DNA of 20,442 bases from a virus. Position 1 is the first letter of the stretch; the number at the start of each line of letters is the position of its first letter. Of the stretch, positions 12,314 to 19,803 are shown in pieces. Location of the stretch: the IMG/VR virus record IMGVR_UViG_3300042516_003920, positions 1 to 20,442 of that record; one strand, written 5' to 3'. The translations under genes and the position numbers were made by a program. The notes beneath the pieces are model-generated. The model was not told where the DNA came from. It saw only the letters and a list, made by a program, of their open reading frames with translations, and ran no database searches.

Positions 12314-13904
12314 GCTCGGCCCCGTCGCCGGCTTCAGTGCATCGGCCACCGCCCGCAAGGGCGACTGGTTCGACGTTTCGGAGTTTGCGCGCCTTGAGAC
12401 ATTCTTTGGACTGTTGCGTCATCAGAAGGGCGTGTGGGCTGGCCAACCGTTCAAGCTGCTGCCGTGGCAGCGTGATCTGCTGGGGTCGCTGCTGTGCTGG
12501 AAGCGGGCCGACGGCACCCGGCGATTTCGCCAGGCGTATATTGAGATCCCACGCAAGAACGGGAAAAGCACCCTGCTGGCTGCGATCGGGTTGTACATGC
12601 TGCTGTGCGATCACGAGCCCGGGGCCGAGGTCTACTGCTGTGCCAGCGCCCGCGACCAGGCCGCAATCGTCGGCGACGCCTGCCGGCAGATGGTTCAGAG
12701 CAACCAGGCACTGGCCAGCCGGGTCGAGGTGTTCCGCAACGTCATCACGTTTGGCACGTCGAAGCTCGAGGTGCTCAGCAGCGACGCCGGCACCAAGCAC
12801 GGCCGCTCGGCGAGCTGCGTGATTTTTGACGAGGTGCACACGTTTGCCGACCGCGACCTGTACGACGCGATGGTCACGAGCATGGGTGCACGCCGCCAGC
12901 CCTTGCAAGTGAGCATCACCACGGCTGGCCACGACCGCAACAGCCTTTGCTGGGAGCTGCACGACTACGCGGAGAAGGTTCGGGAGGGAATCATCGACGA
13001 CCACGCTTTCATGCCGGTGGTGTTCAGTGCCCCGAAGGACGCCGACTGGAAGAGCCCGAAGACGTGGCGGGCTGCCAACCCAAGCCTGGGCACGACGGTC
13101 ACCGAAGAGTTCCTGCGGGCCGAGTGCGACAAGGCCAAGGAATTGCCGACCTACGAGACGACGTTCCGGCAGCTGTACCTGTGCCAGTGGACTGAGGCCA
13201 AGACGGTTTGGATCAGCAGCGACGCATGGAAGGCGTGCGCCTCGAGCGCCGCGGACCCCGACAGCCTTGCCGGCCGAGAGTGTTGGGGCGGGCTCGACCT
13301 GAGCACCACCACGGACCTGAGCTCGCTGGCGCTGGTGTTTCCCTCGGCGGATGGTTCGGTGGACGTGCTGTCCTGGTCGTGGTGCCCCGAGGAGGGCATC
13401 CGCCGGCGGAGCCGCAGCGACCGGGCCCCCTACGACGTGTGGGCGTCACGCGGCGACCTGATCCCAACGCCAGGCACGGTGGTGGACTACGAGTTCATCG
13501 CGGCAAAGATCCGGCAGGTGTGCGAGCGCTACTCTGTTCGGCATATCGGCTATGACCCGTGGAACGCGACGCAGCTGGCGTCCGGGCTGTTCACGGAGGG
13601 CGTCCCCATGCTTGAGGTGCGTCAGGGATTCCGCACCCTGTCCGAGCCGTGCAAGCGGTTGGAGGCGTTGGTCGTCAGCCGCAAGATCCGGCACCCCGAC
13701 AACCAGCTGCTGAACTGGGCCGTGAGCAACACGATCACGGACGCCGATCCTGCCGGCAATCTGAAGATCTCGAAATCGAGCAGCACGGAGCGCATTGACC
13801 CCGTGGCCGCTCTTGTCACCGCCCTTGCCACGTGGTTGCACCAAAGCGATCAGGGCGGCCCCAGCGTTTACGAAGAACCCGAAAGGACGATCACATGGGT
13901 CTGA
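12270..13904 (+). CDS. terL: Terminase large subunit
   Basis: This 544-residue packaging motor has an N-terminal ATPase and a C-terminal nuclease. The ATPase shows an adenine-binding PWQRDLLG region, Walker A RKNGKST (95-101), and Walker B VIFDEVH with D187 and E188. The RNase H-like nuclease shows D343 in GGLDLSTTTD and D429 in GYDPWNAT. The order and motifs match the Terminase_1/YmfN-like family of HK97-type siphophages, and the length is normal. ATG 12270 lies in the end of terS with GGGGG just before it. The stop overlaps the portal gene by 10 bases. Confidence 0.95.
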   Translation: MPRASTRSSNPRPPKLGPVAGFSASATARKGDWFDVSEFARLETFFGLLRHQKGVWAGQPFKLLPWQRDLLGSLLCWKRADGTRRFRQAYIEIPRKNGKSTLLAAIGLYMLLCDHEPGAEVYCCASARDQAAIVGDACRQMVQSNQALASRVEVFRNVITFGTSKLEVLSSDAGTKHGRSASCVIFDEVHTFADRDLYDAMVTSMGARRQPLQVSITTAGHDRNSLCWELHDYAEKVREGIIDDHAFMPVVFSAPKDADWKSPKTWRAANPSLGTTVTEEFLRAECDKAKELPTYETTFRQLYLCQWTEAKTVWISSDAWKACASSAADPDSLAGRECWGGLDLSTTTDLSSLALVFPSADGSVDVLSWSWCPEEGIRRRSRSDRAPYDVWASRGDLIPTPGTVVDYEFIAAKIRQVCERYSVRHIGYDPWNATQLASGLFTEGVPMLEVRQGFRTLSEPCKRLEALVVSRKIRHPDNQLLNWAVSNTITDADPAGNLKISKSSSTERIDPVAALVTALATWLHQSDQGGPSVYEEPERTITWV

Positions 13905-15706
13905 CCGACATCCTGCGCCGATACCTCGGCCCCACGCCGCCTCGTTCCGACTTTGAGGACACCGTCCCCATCGGGCAGGCAACCAGCGGCAGCGTCCAGT
14001 CGTACGTTCAGTCGTACTCGTACTCGGGCGAGTCGATTACGCCATCCCGTGCCCTCGAGGCCCCCAGCGTGTACGCCTGCGTGCGTCTGATTGCCTCGAG
14101 CATCAGCCGGCTCGAGTGGCAGGTGCTGCGTGAGTCGCCCGAGGGCAAGATCACCGACTCAGCTCACCCGCTCTACAACCTGCTGAACTACGAGGCGTCC
14201 GATGACGTTGGCGCCATCCAGCTGCGTGAGAAGCTGCTGACGGATTGCCTGCTGACCGGCAACGCATACGCCTACATCCACCGCGATGCCAGCGGTCGCC
14301 CAAAGGCCCTTGAGGCGTTGCGACCCGACTACGTCGCCATGTACCGCGACGGAGCCAACCAGCCCTACTACCAGGTTTGGACCGGACGCTACAGCGGAAA
14401 CAACGCCGAGAAGTCCATGCGTCGATTCCGGGCGTATGACATGTTTCACTTGGTCGGGCCGACCACGTTTGACGGGCTGCTTGGCGTGCCACCGATTCAC
14501 CTGGGCCGCGATGTCATTGCCCTTGAGCTTGAGATCACCGAGTACGTGACGCGGTTCATCGCCAACAACGCGGTGCCGGCAGGCACCCTGCAGATGCCTG
14601 GGCGGCTGAGCCCCGAAGCGTCAAAGCGTCTGCGGGAAGCGTGGCAGGCCGCTCACGGCGGTGCCAGCCGAGCCGGCCGCGTGGCGGTGCTCGAGGACGG
14701 GCTCAAGTACGAGCCGATCTCCGGCACGTTCAAGGATTCCGAGCTCATCGAGATGCGGAAGTATTGCCGGCAGCAGATTGCGGCGATGTTTCAGGTGCCG
14801 GCCCACAAGGTCGGCGACACCGACTCCGGCTCGTACAACAGCAACGAGCAGGCAGACTCGGAGTTCGTCAAGCACACGCTGGCGAGCTGGGCCGCTCGTC
14901 TTGAGCAGGAAGCCAGCCGCAAACTGGTGATGCGTGGAGAGCCTTGGTGCACCCGCATCAACTTCAGCGACCTCCTGCGGGCTGACATGACCAGCCGCTT
15001 CTCGGCGTATGCCACCGCCATCACCAACGGCATCCTGACCGTCAACGAGGCCCGGGCTCTTGAGGGTCGCCCAGCGGTCGATGGCGGCGATCAGATCCGG
15101 GTGCCCATGAACACCGAAGCCCCCGGCCAGCAGCCCGCTGAAGGGCCCAGCGCGCCCGCTGAGGTGCCGGCAGACAAGGAGCCCTCCGTGGACCTTGAGC
15201 CCGGTGAGGCTGAGCCTGAGGCCACAGGCACGCCCGAGGTGCCCGACAGCGTGGACATGGACCCCGACGACGAGGCAAAGCGGTCGGCTGAGGCCATCGG
15301 TGCCGCCCAGCGGATGGCCGCAGTGGCCGCGGTCAGGCCTGCTGTGGAGGGCGCCTTCCGTCGCCATCTGCAGCGGGTCACCGAGTACCTGCAGCGACAG
15401 CGCACTCAGGCGAAGCTCGACAAGTGGGCTCCGCCCATCGACTGCCTCGAGGGCGAGCTGCGGGACACCGTGGCCGGGTTGGGCCGGATCTTTGGCGACC
15501 AGGCCAAGGCCGAGAAAGCCCTGAGCGATTGCATGCTCCGGCACGCCCGCCACCTGCGTGGCAGCGTCGGAAAGATCGCCGAACTGAGCGACGCCATCAG
15601 CGGATGGCACACCCTGCCCGGCGCGGCTGCGGCCGAGCTGCTGGACATGGTTCGCATGGAAATCACCGACACCCCTGTCCTGGAGGACAACAATGCACAA
15701 GCCTGA
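13895..15706 (+). CDS. Portal protein, HK97 family, with C-terminal extension
   Basis: The 603-residue protein forms the dodecameric ring for DNA entry. The core (about 1-405) has classical HK97 gp3-like features: SVYACVRLIASSISRLEW, GNAYAYIHRD, FHLVGP, a NAVPAGTLQMP segment, FQVPAHKVGD and NSNEQADSEFVKHTL. Beyond about residue 405 comes a Pro/Glu/Ala-rich linker (406-466) and a helical region of about 135 residues, making the protein nearly 200 residues longer than HK97 portal. ATG 13895 follows AAAGGA. The frame is open back to 13832, inside terL. The 3' end overlaps the protease gene by 14 bases. Confidence 0.92.
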   Translation: MGLTDILRRYLGPTPPRSDFEDTVPIGQATSGSVQSYVQSYSYSGESITPSRALEAPSVYACVRLIASSISRLEWQVLRESPEGKITDSAHPLYNLLNYEASDDVGAIQLREKLLTDCLLTGNAYAYIHRDASGRPKALEALRPDYVAMYRDGANQPYYQVWTGRYSGNNAEKSMRRFRAYDMFHLVGPTTFDGLLGVPPIHLGRDVIALELEITEYVTRFIANNAVPAGTLQMPGRLSPEASKRLREAWQAAHGGASRAGRVAVLEDGLKYEPISGTFKDSELIEMRKYCRQQIAAMFQVPAHKVGDTDSGSYNSNEQADSEFVKHTLASWAARLEQEASRKLVMRGEPWCTRINFSDLLRADMTSRFSAYATAITNGILTVNEARALEGRPAVDGGDQIRVPMNTEAPGQQPAEGPSAPAEVPADKEPSVDLEPGEAEPEATGTPEVPDSVDMDPDDEAKRSAEAIGAAQRMAAVAAVRPAVEGAFRRHLQRVTEYLQRQRTQAKLDKWAPPIDCLEGELRDTVAGLGRIFGDQAKAEKALSDCMLRHARHLRGSVGKIAELSDAISGWHTLPGAAAAELLDMVRMEITDTPVLEDNNAQA

Positions 15707-16220
15707 AACCCGTGCCGTTGGCACGATGACCCCTGCGGCCGACATGAAGGTCCGCGGTTACGCCATCCGCTGGAATCAGTACGACATGGGCCGCGAGATG
15801 GAGCGGGTTGACCCCAAGGCGTTTGACCGTTCCATGGAGGAGCCCGGCGACATTGCCCTGCTTTGGAATCACGACACCGGCAAGCCGCTGGCCCGGGTTC
15901 GAGCCGGCAACCTTCGACTGTGGACCGACGAGAACGGGCTGGGCTTTGAGGCAACACTGCCGCAGACCCCTACCGCCCAAGAGGCCCACGCCCTGATTCA
16001 GAGCGGCGTGGTCAGCCAGTGCTCGTTCGGGTTCATGGTGCGCGAGGAGCGGTACGAGAAGGGCGAGAACGGCAAGCCGTGTCGGGTGATCTTGGACGCC
16101 GACCTGCTCGAAATCAGCCTTGTGACGTTTCCAGCGAACAGTTCGACCAGCGTCGAAGCCCGCGAGAAGCCAGCCGAGCCGGCGTCACGTCGTGTGCTCC
16201 GGATGTTTCCACCGGCGTGA
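15693..16220 (+). CDS. Prohead (HK97 family) serine protease
   Basis: This 175-residue protease of the S78/U35 family trims capsid proteins during head maturation. Catalytic His is H60 in LLWNHDTGKPLAR and catalytic Ser is S111 in VVSQCSFGF. The ADLLEISLVTFPANSST segment supplies the conserved acidic and Pro residues. The start follows GGAGG. It lies between portal and capsid genes as in HK97. Its probable targets are the two capsid proteins downstream, both of which contain RALSEG at the border between N-terminal extension and capsid fold. Confidence 0.93.
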   Translation: MHKPETRAVGTMTPAADMKVRGYAIRWNQYDMGREMERVDPKAFDRSMEEPGDIALLWNHDTGKPLARVRAGNLRLWTDENGLGFEATLPQTPTAQEAHALIQSGVVSQCSFGFMVREERYEKGENGKPCRVILDADLLEISLVTFPANSSTSVEAREKPAEPASRRVLRMFPPA

Positions 16221-16228
16221 AATGTAAA

Positions 16229-16267
16229 CCGCTATTGACCTGCCTCTTTTGGCAAGGACAATAGCGG
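16229..16267 (+). promoter_or_regulatory. Hairpin and overlapping possible promoter before the first capsid gene
   Basis: In the 232-base gap before the first capsid gene, CCGCTATTG (16229-16237) and CAATAGCGG (16259-16267) form a perfect 9-bp inverted repeat. Inner CCT/AGG and GCC/GGC pairs extend it, with one A-A mismatch and one bulged A, to a loop of TCTTTT. No T-run follows. TTGACC at 16235-16240 and GACAAT at 16257-16262 with 16-base spacing could be a sigma-70-type promoter using the same bases. The remainder of the gap shows no gene. Either a leader RNA structure or a regulated promoter for high capsid expression is plausible. Confidence 0.4.
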
Positions 16268-16452
16268 GCGACAACTCATCACCACCGTTCTCAGCGAGCC
16301 ACCGCCTAGTGCGATTCGACTGACGAGCGAGCGGACCTCCGTGCAGCCCGTGTGGCGCACTGGCCCGATCAGCGGATGTCAACGACGACGACAACCGCCG
16401 GGGCAGTGCGCCATTTTCATGCGCAGTCCCGGCGTCAACCCCGGAGATTGCG

Positions 16453-17634
16453 ATGGATAACAAGAACAACCTGGACCGCAGCTGCGAGGAGTATCGCGGC
16501 CTGTTCAGCAAGTACATGGCCAAGGGCCACCGCGGCCTGACGAATGCCGAAGCCCGCGCCCTGAGCGAGGGCAGCGCCACCGGCGGCTCGGTGCTGTTCC
16601 CGACGACGTACTCCAACCAGTTCATGTCGATCCTTGGCGACGACGAAGTTCTCGCCAGGACGACCAAGGTCTACAGCTCCACCGGAGTCTTCAGCGTGCC
16701 CGTGATTTCGGGCAACGACCAGTGGCCTAGCGTCGGCGGGTTCAGCACGCAGAACAACCCCGGCGAAGGCAGCAGCCTGCTGGACGCGACGGCTGGGTCT
16801 CAGACTCAGGTGACCGTCCCCACCATCGCCAACCCGCGAAGCAACAACACCCTGAACGGGACCACGACCTCGACACTGACGCTCCGCCGCGTTTCTGTCA
16901 TGGTCAAGGTCTCACAGGAACTGCTGGAGGACAGCGCCAGCCGTGGCGACGCCTCGGTCGAGCAGATGATCGTGCAGCAGGCGTCGCAGGACATTGCTGC
17001 CGCTCTCAACAAGCAGATCCTGATTGGCAACGCCACACCAAGCAGCGTGGTCTCTGGTGACGCGACCAACGCCGGCACCGATTCGTGCCACGGAGTTGTG
17101 AACACGTGCCGCAATCACGGACGTGTTGCGATTGCCGGCAGCGGGTCAGGAGGAATTAGCGGCGAAGGCAGGAATGCAACGACTGACCCGACTGTGTACA
17201 TCGGGTTCGTGCGCGCGAATCGTTTGGCGCCGCAGTACTGGAAGAGGTCACTGATTGTCTTCAACAGTCAGATGACTGGTAGCAGCACGACAAACTACGG
17301 CAGGACGCTGTTCAGCACTGCGAGCCCAGGCCCTGCGCTCTATGCAATGTCTGCGCCTCGCGTGCTGTTTGGACAGCCGTGGACGATGTGCGACATGGCA
17401 ACGTCTGCGCAGGGAAACAGCATTCCAAGTGCGCTCGACGCTCACTTTGTTGCGTGCGATTTCAGCCGATACATGCTGGCGTTCTCGTCGAACGGCCTGG
17501 GCATTACGCGGCTCAACGAAACCTTTGCCGACTCGAACACCGTTGCGTTTGTCGTGTCGGTTCGCGCCGCTGGGGCGCTGATTGATCCGAACGCAGCGTG
17601 GACCTACCTCTGGGACGGCACCACTTCGGGATGA
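16453..17634 (+). CDS. First HK97-fold major capsid protein
   Basis: This 393-residue protein has the HK97 capsid layout. A short N-terminal segment (1-34) is followed by RALSEG (35-40). Then SATGGSVLFPTTY gives the N-arm start, LTLRRVSVMVKVSQELLED marks the spine-helix approach, the helix continues to NKQILIGNATP, and the C-terminal TRLNETFADSNTVAFVV closes the P domain. A typical HK97 delta domain of about 100 residues is missing. Compared with the second capsid protein, codons are less GC-rich, particularly in the 3' half, which suggests different histories. The start is an ATG after CGGAGA. It may form the main shell, co-assemble with the second protein, or be a diverged former copy. Confidence 0.88.
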   Translation: MDNKNNLDRSCEEYRGLFSKYMAKGHRGLTNAEARALSEGSATGGSVLFPTTYSNQFMSILGDDEVLARTTKVYSSTGVFSVPVISGNDQWPSVGGFSTQNNPGEGSSLLDATAGSQTQVTVPTIANPRSNNTLNGTTTSTLTLRRVSVMVKVSQELLEDSASRGDASVEQMIVQQASQDIAAALNKQILIGNATPSSVVSGDATNAGTDSCHGVVNTCRNHGRVAIAGSGSGGISGEGRNATTDPTVYIGFVRANRLAPQYWKRSLIVFNSQMTGSSTTNYGRTLFSTASPGPALYAMSAPRVLFGQPWTMCDMATSAQGNSIPSALDAHFVACDFSRYMLAFSSNGLGITRLNETFADSNTVAFVVSVRAAGALIDPNAAWTYLWDGTTSG

Positions 17635-17662
17635 CCAAATGGGCGAAGGAGGCCCTAATCAC

Positions 17663-18955
17663 ATGAACGGATACAACGAACTTCGTGCGGGCAACGACGC
17701 CCGCTACCGCGAGATGCAGCAGATCATCGAGGCCGCCAACAAGGTCGGCGGCGACATGGACGCCGAGACCACCAAGCGCTTCGAGTCTCTCGACGCCGAG
17801 TACCGCCGGGTGCAGGGCGTGATCGAGAAGAACCACCAGCTGATGGCGCTGGCGGCTAAGGACCGCGAGGCCGGTTTCGTGGACGTCGGCCCCGACGCTC
17901 CCGAGATGCGCCGCGCTCCCGCTGCCCGCGAGACCGCCCAGCGGGCCCCCCGCTTCGGCGACTTCCGCTGCAGCGACGAGTACGTCAAGGCCTACGAGAC
18001 CTACCTCAAGCGTGGCGAGCACACCCCCGTGTCCGAGATGCGGGCCCTCAGCGAAGGCACCGCCGGCTCCGGCGACGTGCTGCCCCCGGTCGAGTTCCAC
18101 AACGAGCTCGCCAAGCGTCTGCAGAACATCGTGACCGTGCGCAACATCTCCCGCGTCCTTCCGCTCGGCAGCTGGAAGCGTGAGATCGCGTTCGAGACCG
18201 CCCTGCCCAACGCGGCATTCATCGCCGAGGGCAGCGCCCCGACCGAGAACACCGGCACCTTCACGAACCGCGTCCTGCAGCCCCGCCGCCTGGCCGGCCT
18301 GTCGCTCGTGTCGAACGAGCTCATGGAAGACGCTCCCGCTCGTGGCCCCGGCTTCTCGATCGAGTCGATCCTCACCGAGCAGTTCGCCCGCAAGTTTGGC
18401 GAGGTCGAGGAGTCGGGCTTCCTGGTCGGCAACGGCACCGCGCCCAACCCCAAGGGCATCCTGACCTACACCAGCGGCGCCAACACCACCGTGAGCACCG
18501 GCGCGACGATGAGCGGCACCGTGGCCTCCCCGGGCCTGACGGCTGCGAACGTGATCGACTGGGTGTACTCGATTCCCCGCCAGTACCGCATGCACTCTTC
18601 GTGCGCCATCGTGACGAGCGACGCTGTGCTCGGCATGATCCGCAAGCTCGGTGCGGTTGGCGGAACCACGAATTACTTCTGGCAGCCCAGCGGCATGCTC
18701 GGCGAGCCGGATCGGATCATGGGCATCCCGGTCTACGCGAGCGCGTACGTCAACAGCATCACCGCCGGCAGCGTCATCGGCATCGCCGGTGCGTTCGACT
18801 ACTGCGTCATCGGTGAGCGAAGCGGCTACACCCTCAAGGTGCTCCGCGAGCGTTACGCCGACAGCAACCAGACGGGCTTCCTCGCGCAGAACCGCGTGGA
18901 TATCACCCTCACTCAGACGGAGGCGTTCCGTTACCTCCTGTCGCCGGCCAGCTGA
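17663..18955 (+). CDS. Second HK97-fold major capsid protein
   Basis: This 430-residue protein is a full-length HK97-type capsid protein. Residues 1-126 are a charged helical delta domain, acting as built-in scaffold, and RALSEG lies at 127-132. The mature fold follows: GDVLPPVEFHNELAKRL, AFIAEGSAPTEN, LAGLSLVSNELMEDAP, a helix ending in FLVGNGTAPNPKGILTY, PDRIMGIPVYAS, and RERYADSNQTGFLAQNRVD near the end. Codons are strongly C/G-ending, as expected of a heavily expressed gene. ATG 17663 follows GAAGGAGG; ATG 17639 and upstream TTG/ATT-type starts are less likely. It lies 28 bases after the first capsid gene. Confidence 0.92.
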   Translation: MNGYNELRAGNDARYREMQQIIEAANKVGGDMDAETTKRFESLDAEYRRVQGVIEKNHQLMALAAKDREAGFVDVGPDAPEMRRAPAARETAQRAPRFGDFRCSDEYVKAYETYLKRGEHTPVSEMRALSEGTAGSGDVLPPVEFHNELAKRLQNIVTVRNISRVLPLGSWKREIAFETALPNAAFIAEGSAPTENTGTFTNRVLQPRRLAGLSLVSNELMEDAPARGPGFSIESILTEQFARKFGEVEESGFLVGNGTAPNPKGILTYTSGANTTVSTGATMSGTVASPGLTAANVIDWVYSIPRQYRMHSSCAIVTSDAVLGMIRKLGAVGGTTNYFWQPSGMLGEPDRIMGIPVYASAYVNSITAGSVIGIAGAFDYCVIGERSGYTLKVLRERYADSNQTGFLAQNRVDITLTQTEAFRYLLSPAS

Positions 18956-18974
18956 TCACTGACCTGAACCCACA

Positions 18975-19002
18975 CCGCTCGGGGGGGAAACCCCCCGGGC
19001 GG
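18975..19002 (+). terminator. GC-rich GAAA-loop hairpin after the capsid gene
   Basis: CCGCTCGGGGGG, loop GAAA and CCCCCCGGGCGG form a 12-bp stem with one U-G pair and a very stable GNRA tetraloop. It begins 20 bases after the capsid stop. Only ATTT follows, so termination is likely partial. This would lower expression of downstream connector genes relative to capsid and protect the capsid mRNA 3' end. Confidence 0.6.
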
Positions 19003-19012
19003 ATTTCCAACC

Positions 19013-19207
19013 ATGCCAACCGTTCGCGTCATTCAGGCCTACGCCGACCTCAAGGAAGCGCACTCGCCTGGCGACGTGCTGAATGTTGACGAGCGCACGG
19101 CCACCGAGCTGATTGCCACGGGCCTTGCCGAGCGGCACGAGCCCGGGCCTCGGGCCTGCGTCAAGCACGATTGCTGCAAGGCGGTCAAGAAGGGAGCCAA
19201 GGCGTGA
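19013..19207 (+). CDS. Small hypothetical protein between capsid and connector
   Basis: This 64-residue protein starts at an ATG 11 bases after the hairpin, with no clear Shine-Dalgarno. It has a beta-alpha start (TVRVIQAYADLKEAHSPGDVLNVDERTATELIATGLAE), which resembles the short domain of capsid-adjacent phage proteins that set a LxxGxAE motif after a DxxxAxxL helix. The basic tail CVKHDCCKAVKKGAKA holds three cysteines and a histidine and could bind metal. The stop overlaps the next GTG. It may be a small head accessory protein; function unproven. Confidence 0.65.
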   Translation: MPTVRVIQAYADLKEAHSPGDVLNVDERTATELIATGLAERHEPGPRACVKHDCCKAVKKGAKA

Positions 19208-19803
19208 CCGAGGGCCTGCGCACCAACCTGTCAGACACCGGCGCCACATCGCCCGTGATCTCTTCCAGCGAGCTGAAGACGCACGCACGCATCTATCACA
19301 GCCAGGACGACACGTACCTCGGCACCCTGATCACGACGGCCACGCAGATCATCGAAGCCGAGACGCGGCGGGCCATGATCAATCGGGCTTTTGCGTTCCA
19401 GCTCGAGGCGTTCCCGGCCGACGGAGAGATCATCCTGCCCCGCTCGCCGCTGTCCACCGTCACCAGCGTGACCTACACGGACACGGCCGGGGCCACGCAG
19501 ACCCTGTCGGCAAGCACCTACCACGTCTACTCCGTCAACGGCGTCGGCCGGGTCGTGCTCAAGAGCACGTCGTCATGGCCCGACACGCAGGACACCGGGA
19601 ACCTTGACGTCACGATCAACTTCACCGCCGGGTACGGGGCTTCCTCAAGCAACGTGCCGGCCGCTCTCCGGCATGCGACGCTGCTGGCAGCGACGCACCT
19701 GTACGACAACCGCACCAGCGTCAACGTCGGCAACATTGTCAACGAGCTGCCGATGACCGTGCAGCGTCTCATCGTGCAGTACCACAGCGGGGACTACGCA
19801 TGA
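19204..19803 (+). CDS. Head-tail connector protein (HK97 gp6-like)
   Basis: This 199-residue protein is likely the first ring added below the portal. Residues 20-60 (SSSELKTHARIYHSQDDTYL then TTATQIIEAETRRAMINR) are the signature helices of the Phage_connect_1/gp6-like family. A central beta region follows (LPRSPLSTVTSVTYTD, YHVYSVNGVGRVVL, VTINFTAGYG), then helix VPAALRHATLLAATHLYDNR and the C-terminal PMTVQRLIVQYHSGDYA. The GTG start overlaps the previous stop; the open frame back to 19171 is not needed. It ends in an ATGA junction with the adaptor gene. Confidence 0.88.
   Translation: MTEGLRTNLSDTGATSPVISSSELKTHARIYHSQDDTYLGTLITTATQIIEAETRRAMINRAFAFQLEAFPADGEIILPRSPLSTVTSVTYTDTAGATQTLSASTYHVYSVNGVGRVVLKSTSSWPDTQDTGNLDVTINFTAGYGASSSNVPAALRHATLLAATHLYDNRTSVNVGNIVNELPMTVQRLIVQYHSGDYA

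Follow-up and report, generated by a model that had tools for sequence, protein, structure and literature searches.

Two tandem HK97-fold major capsid protein genes suggest a two-protein shell in a group of small uncultured phages

The phage genome studied here carries two successive genes for HK97-fold major capsid proteins, MCP1 and MCP2, and this two-MCP arrangement is, as far as the recovered genomes tell, common to a widespread group of small uncultured phages. That these phages build a two-protein HK97-fold shell is in our judgement very likely. For the roles of the two proteins we lean towards a division of labour in which MCP2 would be the self-scaffolding major subunit and MCP1 would form capsomers of its own, most likely the pentons. 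The window, i.e. the whole stretch of DNA analysed, is an IMG/VR virus record of 20,442 bases, in which the genes follow the order integrase, replication genes, terminase, portal, protease, MCP1, MCP2, small protein, head-tail connector and head closure; no tRNA was found in it. Near its left end it encodes two cysteine-rich proteins without a Pfam match (58-753 and 726-1259). The features of the capsid region are:

13892-15706, + strand: portal protein (Pfam PF04860, E 2.8e-96)
15693-16220, + strand: prohead protease (Peptidase_S78; PF04586, E 2.8e-42; PHROG 80), the sole protease ahead of the pair
16453-17634, + strand: MCP1, second HK97-fold capsid protein, 393 aa, ATG at 16453 (PF05065, E 1.4e-15)
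16555-16572, + strand: RALSEG of MCP1, presumed processing region, residues 35-40, read from the sequence
17663-18955, + strand: MCP2, main HK97-fold capsid protein, 430 aa, ATG at 17663 (PF05065, E 4.6e-45); in its longest form the open frame begins at 17582, upstream of this ATG
18041-18058, + strand: RALSEG of MCP2, presumed processing region, residues 127-132, read from the sequence
19013-19207, + strand: small conserved protein of 64 aa, adjoining MCP2 (weak DUF7302)
19171-19803, + strand: head-tail connector (Pfam PF05135, E 2.5e-10)

MCP1 and MCP2 are about 27% identical, and a profile-profile comparison with hhalign aligns them over 318 columns with 99.4% probability. The Pfam family PF05065 (Phage_capsid, cut-off 24.2 bits) is matched by MCP1 with 57.9 and by MCP2 with 154.6 bits, a search of the phage's own genome with this family recovers both, and both match PHROG 10 ('major head protein'). 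Confidence in the AlphaFold models is low (mean pLDDT 51 for MCP1 and 47 for MCP2); the best Foldseek matches of both are HK97-type shells and encapsulins, the weak MCP1 model giving 258 HK97-fold matches at E<=0.001, and the nearest solved structure to MCP2 is the RcGTA capsid (6tb9, E 6e-19). Pfam, PHROG 10, hhalign and Foldseek thus all agree with the initial annotation, which had recognized two successive HK97-fold capsid genes; neither protein fails a test for this fold. Its count of residues ahead of a shared RALSEG hexapeptide, 34 in MCP1 and 126 in MCP2, is exact, and a single protease gene precedes both MCPs as it had stated. The hexapeptide itself, present in both proteins, is less special than had been supposed: it drifts in relatives, yet does so jointly in both proteins.

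We scanned 2.9 million viral contigs with each protein and with alignments of each, separately, in six scans. The first four scans yielded 88 contigs, of which 76 hold both genes and the other 12 end where the partner would lie; wherever both flanks are present, MCP1 lies directly before MCP2 (76/76 uncultured viral contigs). The six scans gave 278 overlapping loci, 256 with both genes, and MCP1 comes first in every pair. Not one of these 278 loci has enough sequence and is without MCP1 or MCP2, which answers the question, raised earlier, of whether relatives keep both genes: neither is lost in any testable relative. There are 86 distinct full-length pairs, or 68 once pairs more than 95% identical are removed, and the lowest identity among full pairs is 24% for MCP1 and 36% for MCP2. 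The median pairwise dN/dS is 0.13 for MCP1 and 0.18 for MCP2; by this ratio both genes are under purifying selection. In the tree MCP1 forms a single clade with a support of 99/97, the corresponding values for MCP2 are 60/63, and the outgroups are not resolved between MCP1 and MCP2, a topology as compatible with an origin of MCP1 by duplication as with one by acquisition. Since the pair is kept in every testable relative, it marks a stable two-MCP lineage and not an accident of one contig.

In two of the records, L024 (G004) and L071 (G008), the ends of the contig overlap, by 946 bases (96%) and by 127 bases (100%), respectively, so that these genomes look complete, at about 26.8 and 27.0 kb. 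The record L033 (3300045125_000050) contains frameshifts in terminase, portal, protease and MCP2, which are probably sequencing errors. Two scans for a host, covering 84,980 genomes of bacteria and archaea, found no carrier and gave one partial match of 27%. Neither the window-type MCP1 nor the L139-type MCP1 has a match among 50,697 phage records, and for the short-type MCP1 of L125 and L011 the phage collection gives just ordinary MCPs of other phages, at 24-30%. As the collection searched holds no window-type MCP1, the gene could easily be dismissed as a spurious duplicate. A literature search for other tandem-MCP phages returned the T7 10A/10B frameshift, T4 and unrelated uses only, which is weak evidence of novelty because subscription journals were thinly covered.

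The two proteins differ most clearly in how they begin. In every genome with a findable motif, 30-35 residues lie ahead of RALS in MCP1 and 120-129 in MCP2. HK97-type phages that have no scaffold gene use the delta domain in its place. AlphaFold predicts long helices of such a domain at residues 2-27 and 34-69 of MCP2; MCP1 has no counterpart to them and is without a delta domain in all relatives, which suggests that it would need MCP2 for entry into the procapsid. The short N-terminus of MCP1 (LDRxxEEYRxLFxxYLxxG...) aligns with the last part of the MCP2 N-terminal region. Behind the RALS motif follows a linker of several forms (ATGG/AGSG, GLG, SGGT and GQGG-like), and its class matches between MCP1 and MCP2 in 62/62 genomes, for long and short MCP1 alike, with class borders set by the analyst, ATGG counted as matching AGSG, and three genomes having the motif in neither protein. 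With the rest of MCP1 held constant, the identity of MCP1 residues 1-56 tracks MCP2 identity (partial r 0.58-0.60, p 0.002); with the N-terminus held constant, the MCP1 shell shows no correlation with MCP2 identity (partial r -0.01). L014 and L029 illustrate this coupling: their MCP1 proteins are 94% identical with the differences mainly in the first 55 residues, and their MCP2 proteins differ too (65% identical). We read the coupling as a need for propeptide and N-arm to suit the partner or the protease, with a shell domain that can be replaced. Part of the coupling could stem from a hot spot of recombination at the conserved N-terminal DNA.

Exchange of the MCP1 shell is seen in pairs of genomes: L148 and L149 have MCP2 proteins that are 92% identical and MCP1 proteins that are 25% identical, and in L160 and L221 the values are 99% and 32%. 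L027 and the window are near-identical phages: terminase, portal and connector are 97-99% identical, and protease, MCP1 and MCP2 have been cleanly swapped as a block. The small gene is also exchanged between these two, and a fibre-like gene is added in L027. The free exchange of shells, together with the missing shell-shell correlation, fits separate capsomers better than mixed ones. Two MCP1 variants (L031 2601-3854 and L114 2681-3931) carry a repeat-like insert at the extended loop (GSGYTSAPTVSFSGGGGSGATATA), which is probably exposed.

The annotated difference in codon bias between the two genes is real: in the window Nc is 39.8 for MCP1 and 29.5 for MCP2, and 36.9 for terminase and portal. 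The bias is stronger in MCP2 than in MCP1 in 43/45 genomes, in line with MCP2 being the abundant subunit. In the subclade L020-L026 MCP1 is about as codon-biased as MCP2, which, taking codon bias as a guide to abundance, does not fit a strictly minor MCP1.

Between the protease and MCP1 genes lie two putative regulatory features:

16235-16262, + strand: sigma-70-like promoter TTGACC-N16-GACAAT, directly after the protease, the sole promoter-like site in 15600-19300
16282-16452, + strand: candidate structured 5' leader RNA of the capsid pair (fold z -5.2)

Shuffles of the region 15600-19300 contain a mean of 0.2 promoter-like sites, and relatives have a -35/-10-like pair in the same place. The gap between protease and MCP1 measures 170-232 bases in all relatives checked, with the promoter-like pair at its start and the ribosome site at its end. 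A consensus structure of the leader from 22 relatives is 98.4% paired, with 11 pairs changed on both sides, and its covariation score is 0.269 versus 0.114 in shuffled alignments (reached in 0/500), and slid controls do not exceed 0.058. The Shine-Dalgarno sequence of MCP1 is paired in one stem, CUCCG:CGGAG, which is kept in 21-22 of the 22. A covariance model recovers the leader at the same site in distant clades (L167 with E 3e-12, L070 with 1e-6 and L178 with 0.002), the hits in others being weak or absent; in 51/62 leaders the fold surpasses that of shuffled sequences by over 2 sd, and a search of Rfam gave no match. We considered that the gap might instead hide an N-terminal extension of MCP1 with a delta domain and rejected this: the frame upstream offers no usable start, nor is it conserved at the protein level, which leaves an RNA leader as the reading of the gap. 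This RNA may adjust the translation of MCP1.

In some relatives the gene for the small protein that follows MCP2 and the connector gene are separated by an additional gene of about 285-580 codons, for example:

L027, 7433-8689: fibre-like gene
L183, 5534-7180: fibre-like gene
L068, 7329-8237: fibre-like gene

By spacing, the window has no such gene between MCP2 and connector, and its MCP1 is of the long type, outside the fibre-linked clade. The gene is found with 0/32 long and 35/41 short MCP1 genes, and a search with its commonest form detected none in long-type records. The six short-MCP1 genomes without it form, as far as they are in the tree (L011, L156, L160), an MCP1 subclade of their own; counted by MCP1 clade the distribution is 35/35 versus 0/38. 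One change on the tree of the MCP1 shell domain (branch support 89) is needed to account for the presence of the gene, compared with 5 on the MCP2 tree, 9 on the connector tree, 11 on the portal tree and 12 on the protease tree. MCP2 separates MCP1 from the fibre-like gene, and the connector is its direct neighbour, yet their trees fit worse. An independent-pairs sign test on the MCP2 tree, which alone is not significant, has 3-4 pairs in agreement, none opposed and 4-5 uninformative. Most of the encoded proteins combine a conserved N-terminal peptide (MKGNAYVPFMLRRG, MSRSNAAAALLFRRKG) with one of three unrelated C-terminal domains: a domain common to tail proteins with weak resemblance to CBM_4_9, a glycine-rich domain (PF21722), and a domain with a GDSN motif that is SGNH hydrolase-like by eye. 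The gene position suggests that the product is a head fibre; the occurrence of fibre-like domains in tail proteins as well counts against this.

We infer from the genomes that both proteins are present in the virion and form separate capsomers, with MCP1 at the penton position and, in one clade, involved in fibre docking. The delta domain, about 100 residues at the N-terminus of MCP2, would act as scaffold, and MCP2 would make the hexamers. MCP1 would have lost, or never had, such a domain; its short helical propeptide, matching the end of the MCP2 delta domain, would together with the N-arm allow it to join the MCP2 procapsid, where the same protease would trim both. It would then make capsomers of its own, most likely eleven pentons, like T4 gp24. 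In one MCP1 clade, which is not that of the window, these capsomers would be the docking site for a head fibre encoded just downstream of MCP2. The pair is probably transcribed from its own promoter, and the leader RNA could hide the MCP1 ribosome site. A bolder version, which we offer as a possibility short of probable, would see MCP1 as an exchangeable vertex module like a penton base, with different clades plugged into a near-constant MCP2 shell, one clade taking a fibre that is held by its N-peptide and bears swappable sugar-binding or hydrolase-like heads, and a specialized leader RNA setting the amount of MCP1 relative to MCP2.

The place of MCP1 in the shell can have other explanations. 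The initial annotation had envisaged a mixed shell, with the second protein supplying the scaffold domain for both. A shell of both proteins in which the MCP2 delta domain serves the two is supported by the universal pair, the lack of this domain in MCP1 and the matched processing and N-arm segment; the mixing of both proteins in the same hexamers has become less likely. Mixed hexamers, to which MCP2 would lend the delta domain, would accommodate the common motif, the matched linkers, the missing delta domain of MCP1 and the equal codon bias in one subclade. On the other hand, MCP1 shells with 25-32% identity are swapped beside MCP2 proteins with 92-99% identity, which misfits intimate contacts within a capsomer, and the shells do not correlate once the N-terminus is controlled for; we consider mixed hexamers unlikely. 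Alternatively, MCP1 might be a non-penton element, for instance by surrounding the portal as a ring of capsomers, capping an elongated head or forming a decoration layer. The lower codon bias of MCP1 fits a minor component of this kind and the linkage to the fibre-like gene fits any exposed position, but there is no elongated-head or portal-ring signal and portal identity is weakly tied to the MCP1 shell (r 0.31), which makes this likewise improbable to us.

Two complete shell genes, each with its own ribosome site, could also serve two kinds of particles or a size switch with one MCP each. Such either/or capsids are at odds with an MCP1 that has no scaffold domain, no separate scaffold gene seen beside it, and an N-terminus matched to MCP2, and we give this reading little chance. 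Finally, MCP1 varies more between genomes than MCP2 does and has often been replaced, as might be expected if it were a decaying or recently gained copy that plays no role, and the initial annotation had itself thought of a newly acquired alternative capsid gene. This idea had to be given up: MCP1 is never lost or broken in any relative, its dN/dS is that of a constrained gene (see above) and it constitutes one old clade, so that a roleless copy is hardly credible. The preferred reading remains that of MCP1 in capsomers of its own, most likely pentons.

That an HK97-fold shell can have a penton protein of its own is textbook knowledge, learned from T4, a large and complicated phage. If our reading is true, the phages described here provide a small system of about 27 kb in which the pair is obligatory, one member is naturally swapped and a fibre gene is linked. 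It could serve to study what distinguishes hexamers from pentamers, by what route a scaffold-less subunit enters the procapsid, and how head fibres choose their seat. The single-MCP phages of HK97 type (for example Heliusvirales NatCom phages, Javan100, phi1605), to whose MCP the MCP2 is 28-36% identical, share the order portal, protease, MCP. In these phages, the nearest isolated ones, the protease gene is followed by just one MCP, in contrast to the two found here.

The RcGTA capsid, the closest solved relative of MCP2, carries head spikes, which are fibres attached to the pentamers via short N-terminal peptides and bind polysaccharide (PMC7296036). The fibre-like proteins in relatives of the window phage likewise have a conserved N-terminal peptide; RcGTA differs in having one capsid protein and a separate base protein under the fibre, and no base protein was identified here. 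T4 Hoc combines a conserved capsid-binding part with variable outer domains (PMC10385173). Its C-terminal domain binds the centres of gp23 hexamers, whereas here the N-terminal peptide is conserved, the C-terminal domains are exchanged and the gene goes with one MCP1 clade.

In T4, gp24 forms the pentons (PMC3012670, PMC9958956), and one prohead protease removes the N-terminal propeptides from gp23 and gp24 (PMC3012670, PMC5694885). The likeness to gp23 and gp24 lies in two HK97-fold relatives that always occur together, and in one prohead protease, which in our phages would cut both. The differences are considerable: the genome has about 27 kb, a delta-domain scaffold lies inside MCP2 instead of a separate core, the proteins are of the Phage_capsid family, the presumed minor gene comes first, and the MCP1 shell is freely exchanged and linked to a fibre-like gene. 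No match to the T4 capsid family was obtained, the sole Pfam match being PF05065 and the PHROG matches being of the phrog_10 kind, so that the pair may work like that of T4 and is not a member of the T4 family. The arrangement is very probably a widely conserved two-protein shell, analogous to T4 gp23/gp24 but outside the T4 family.
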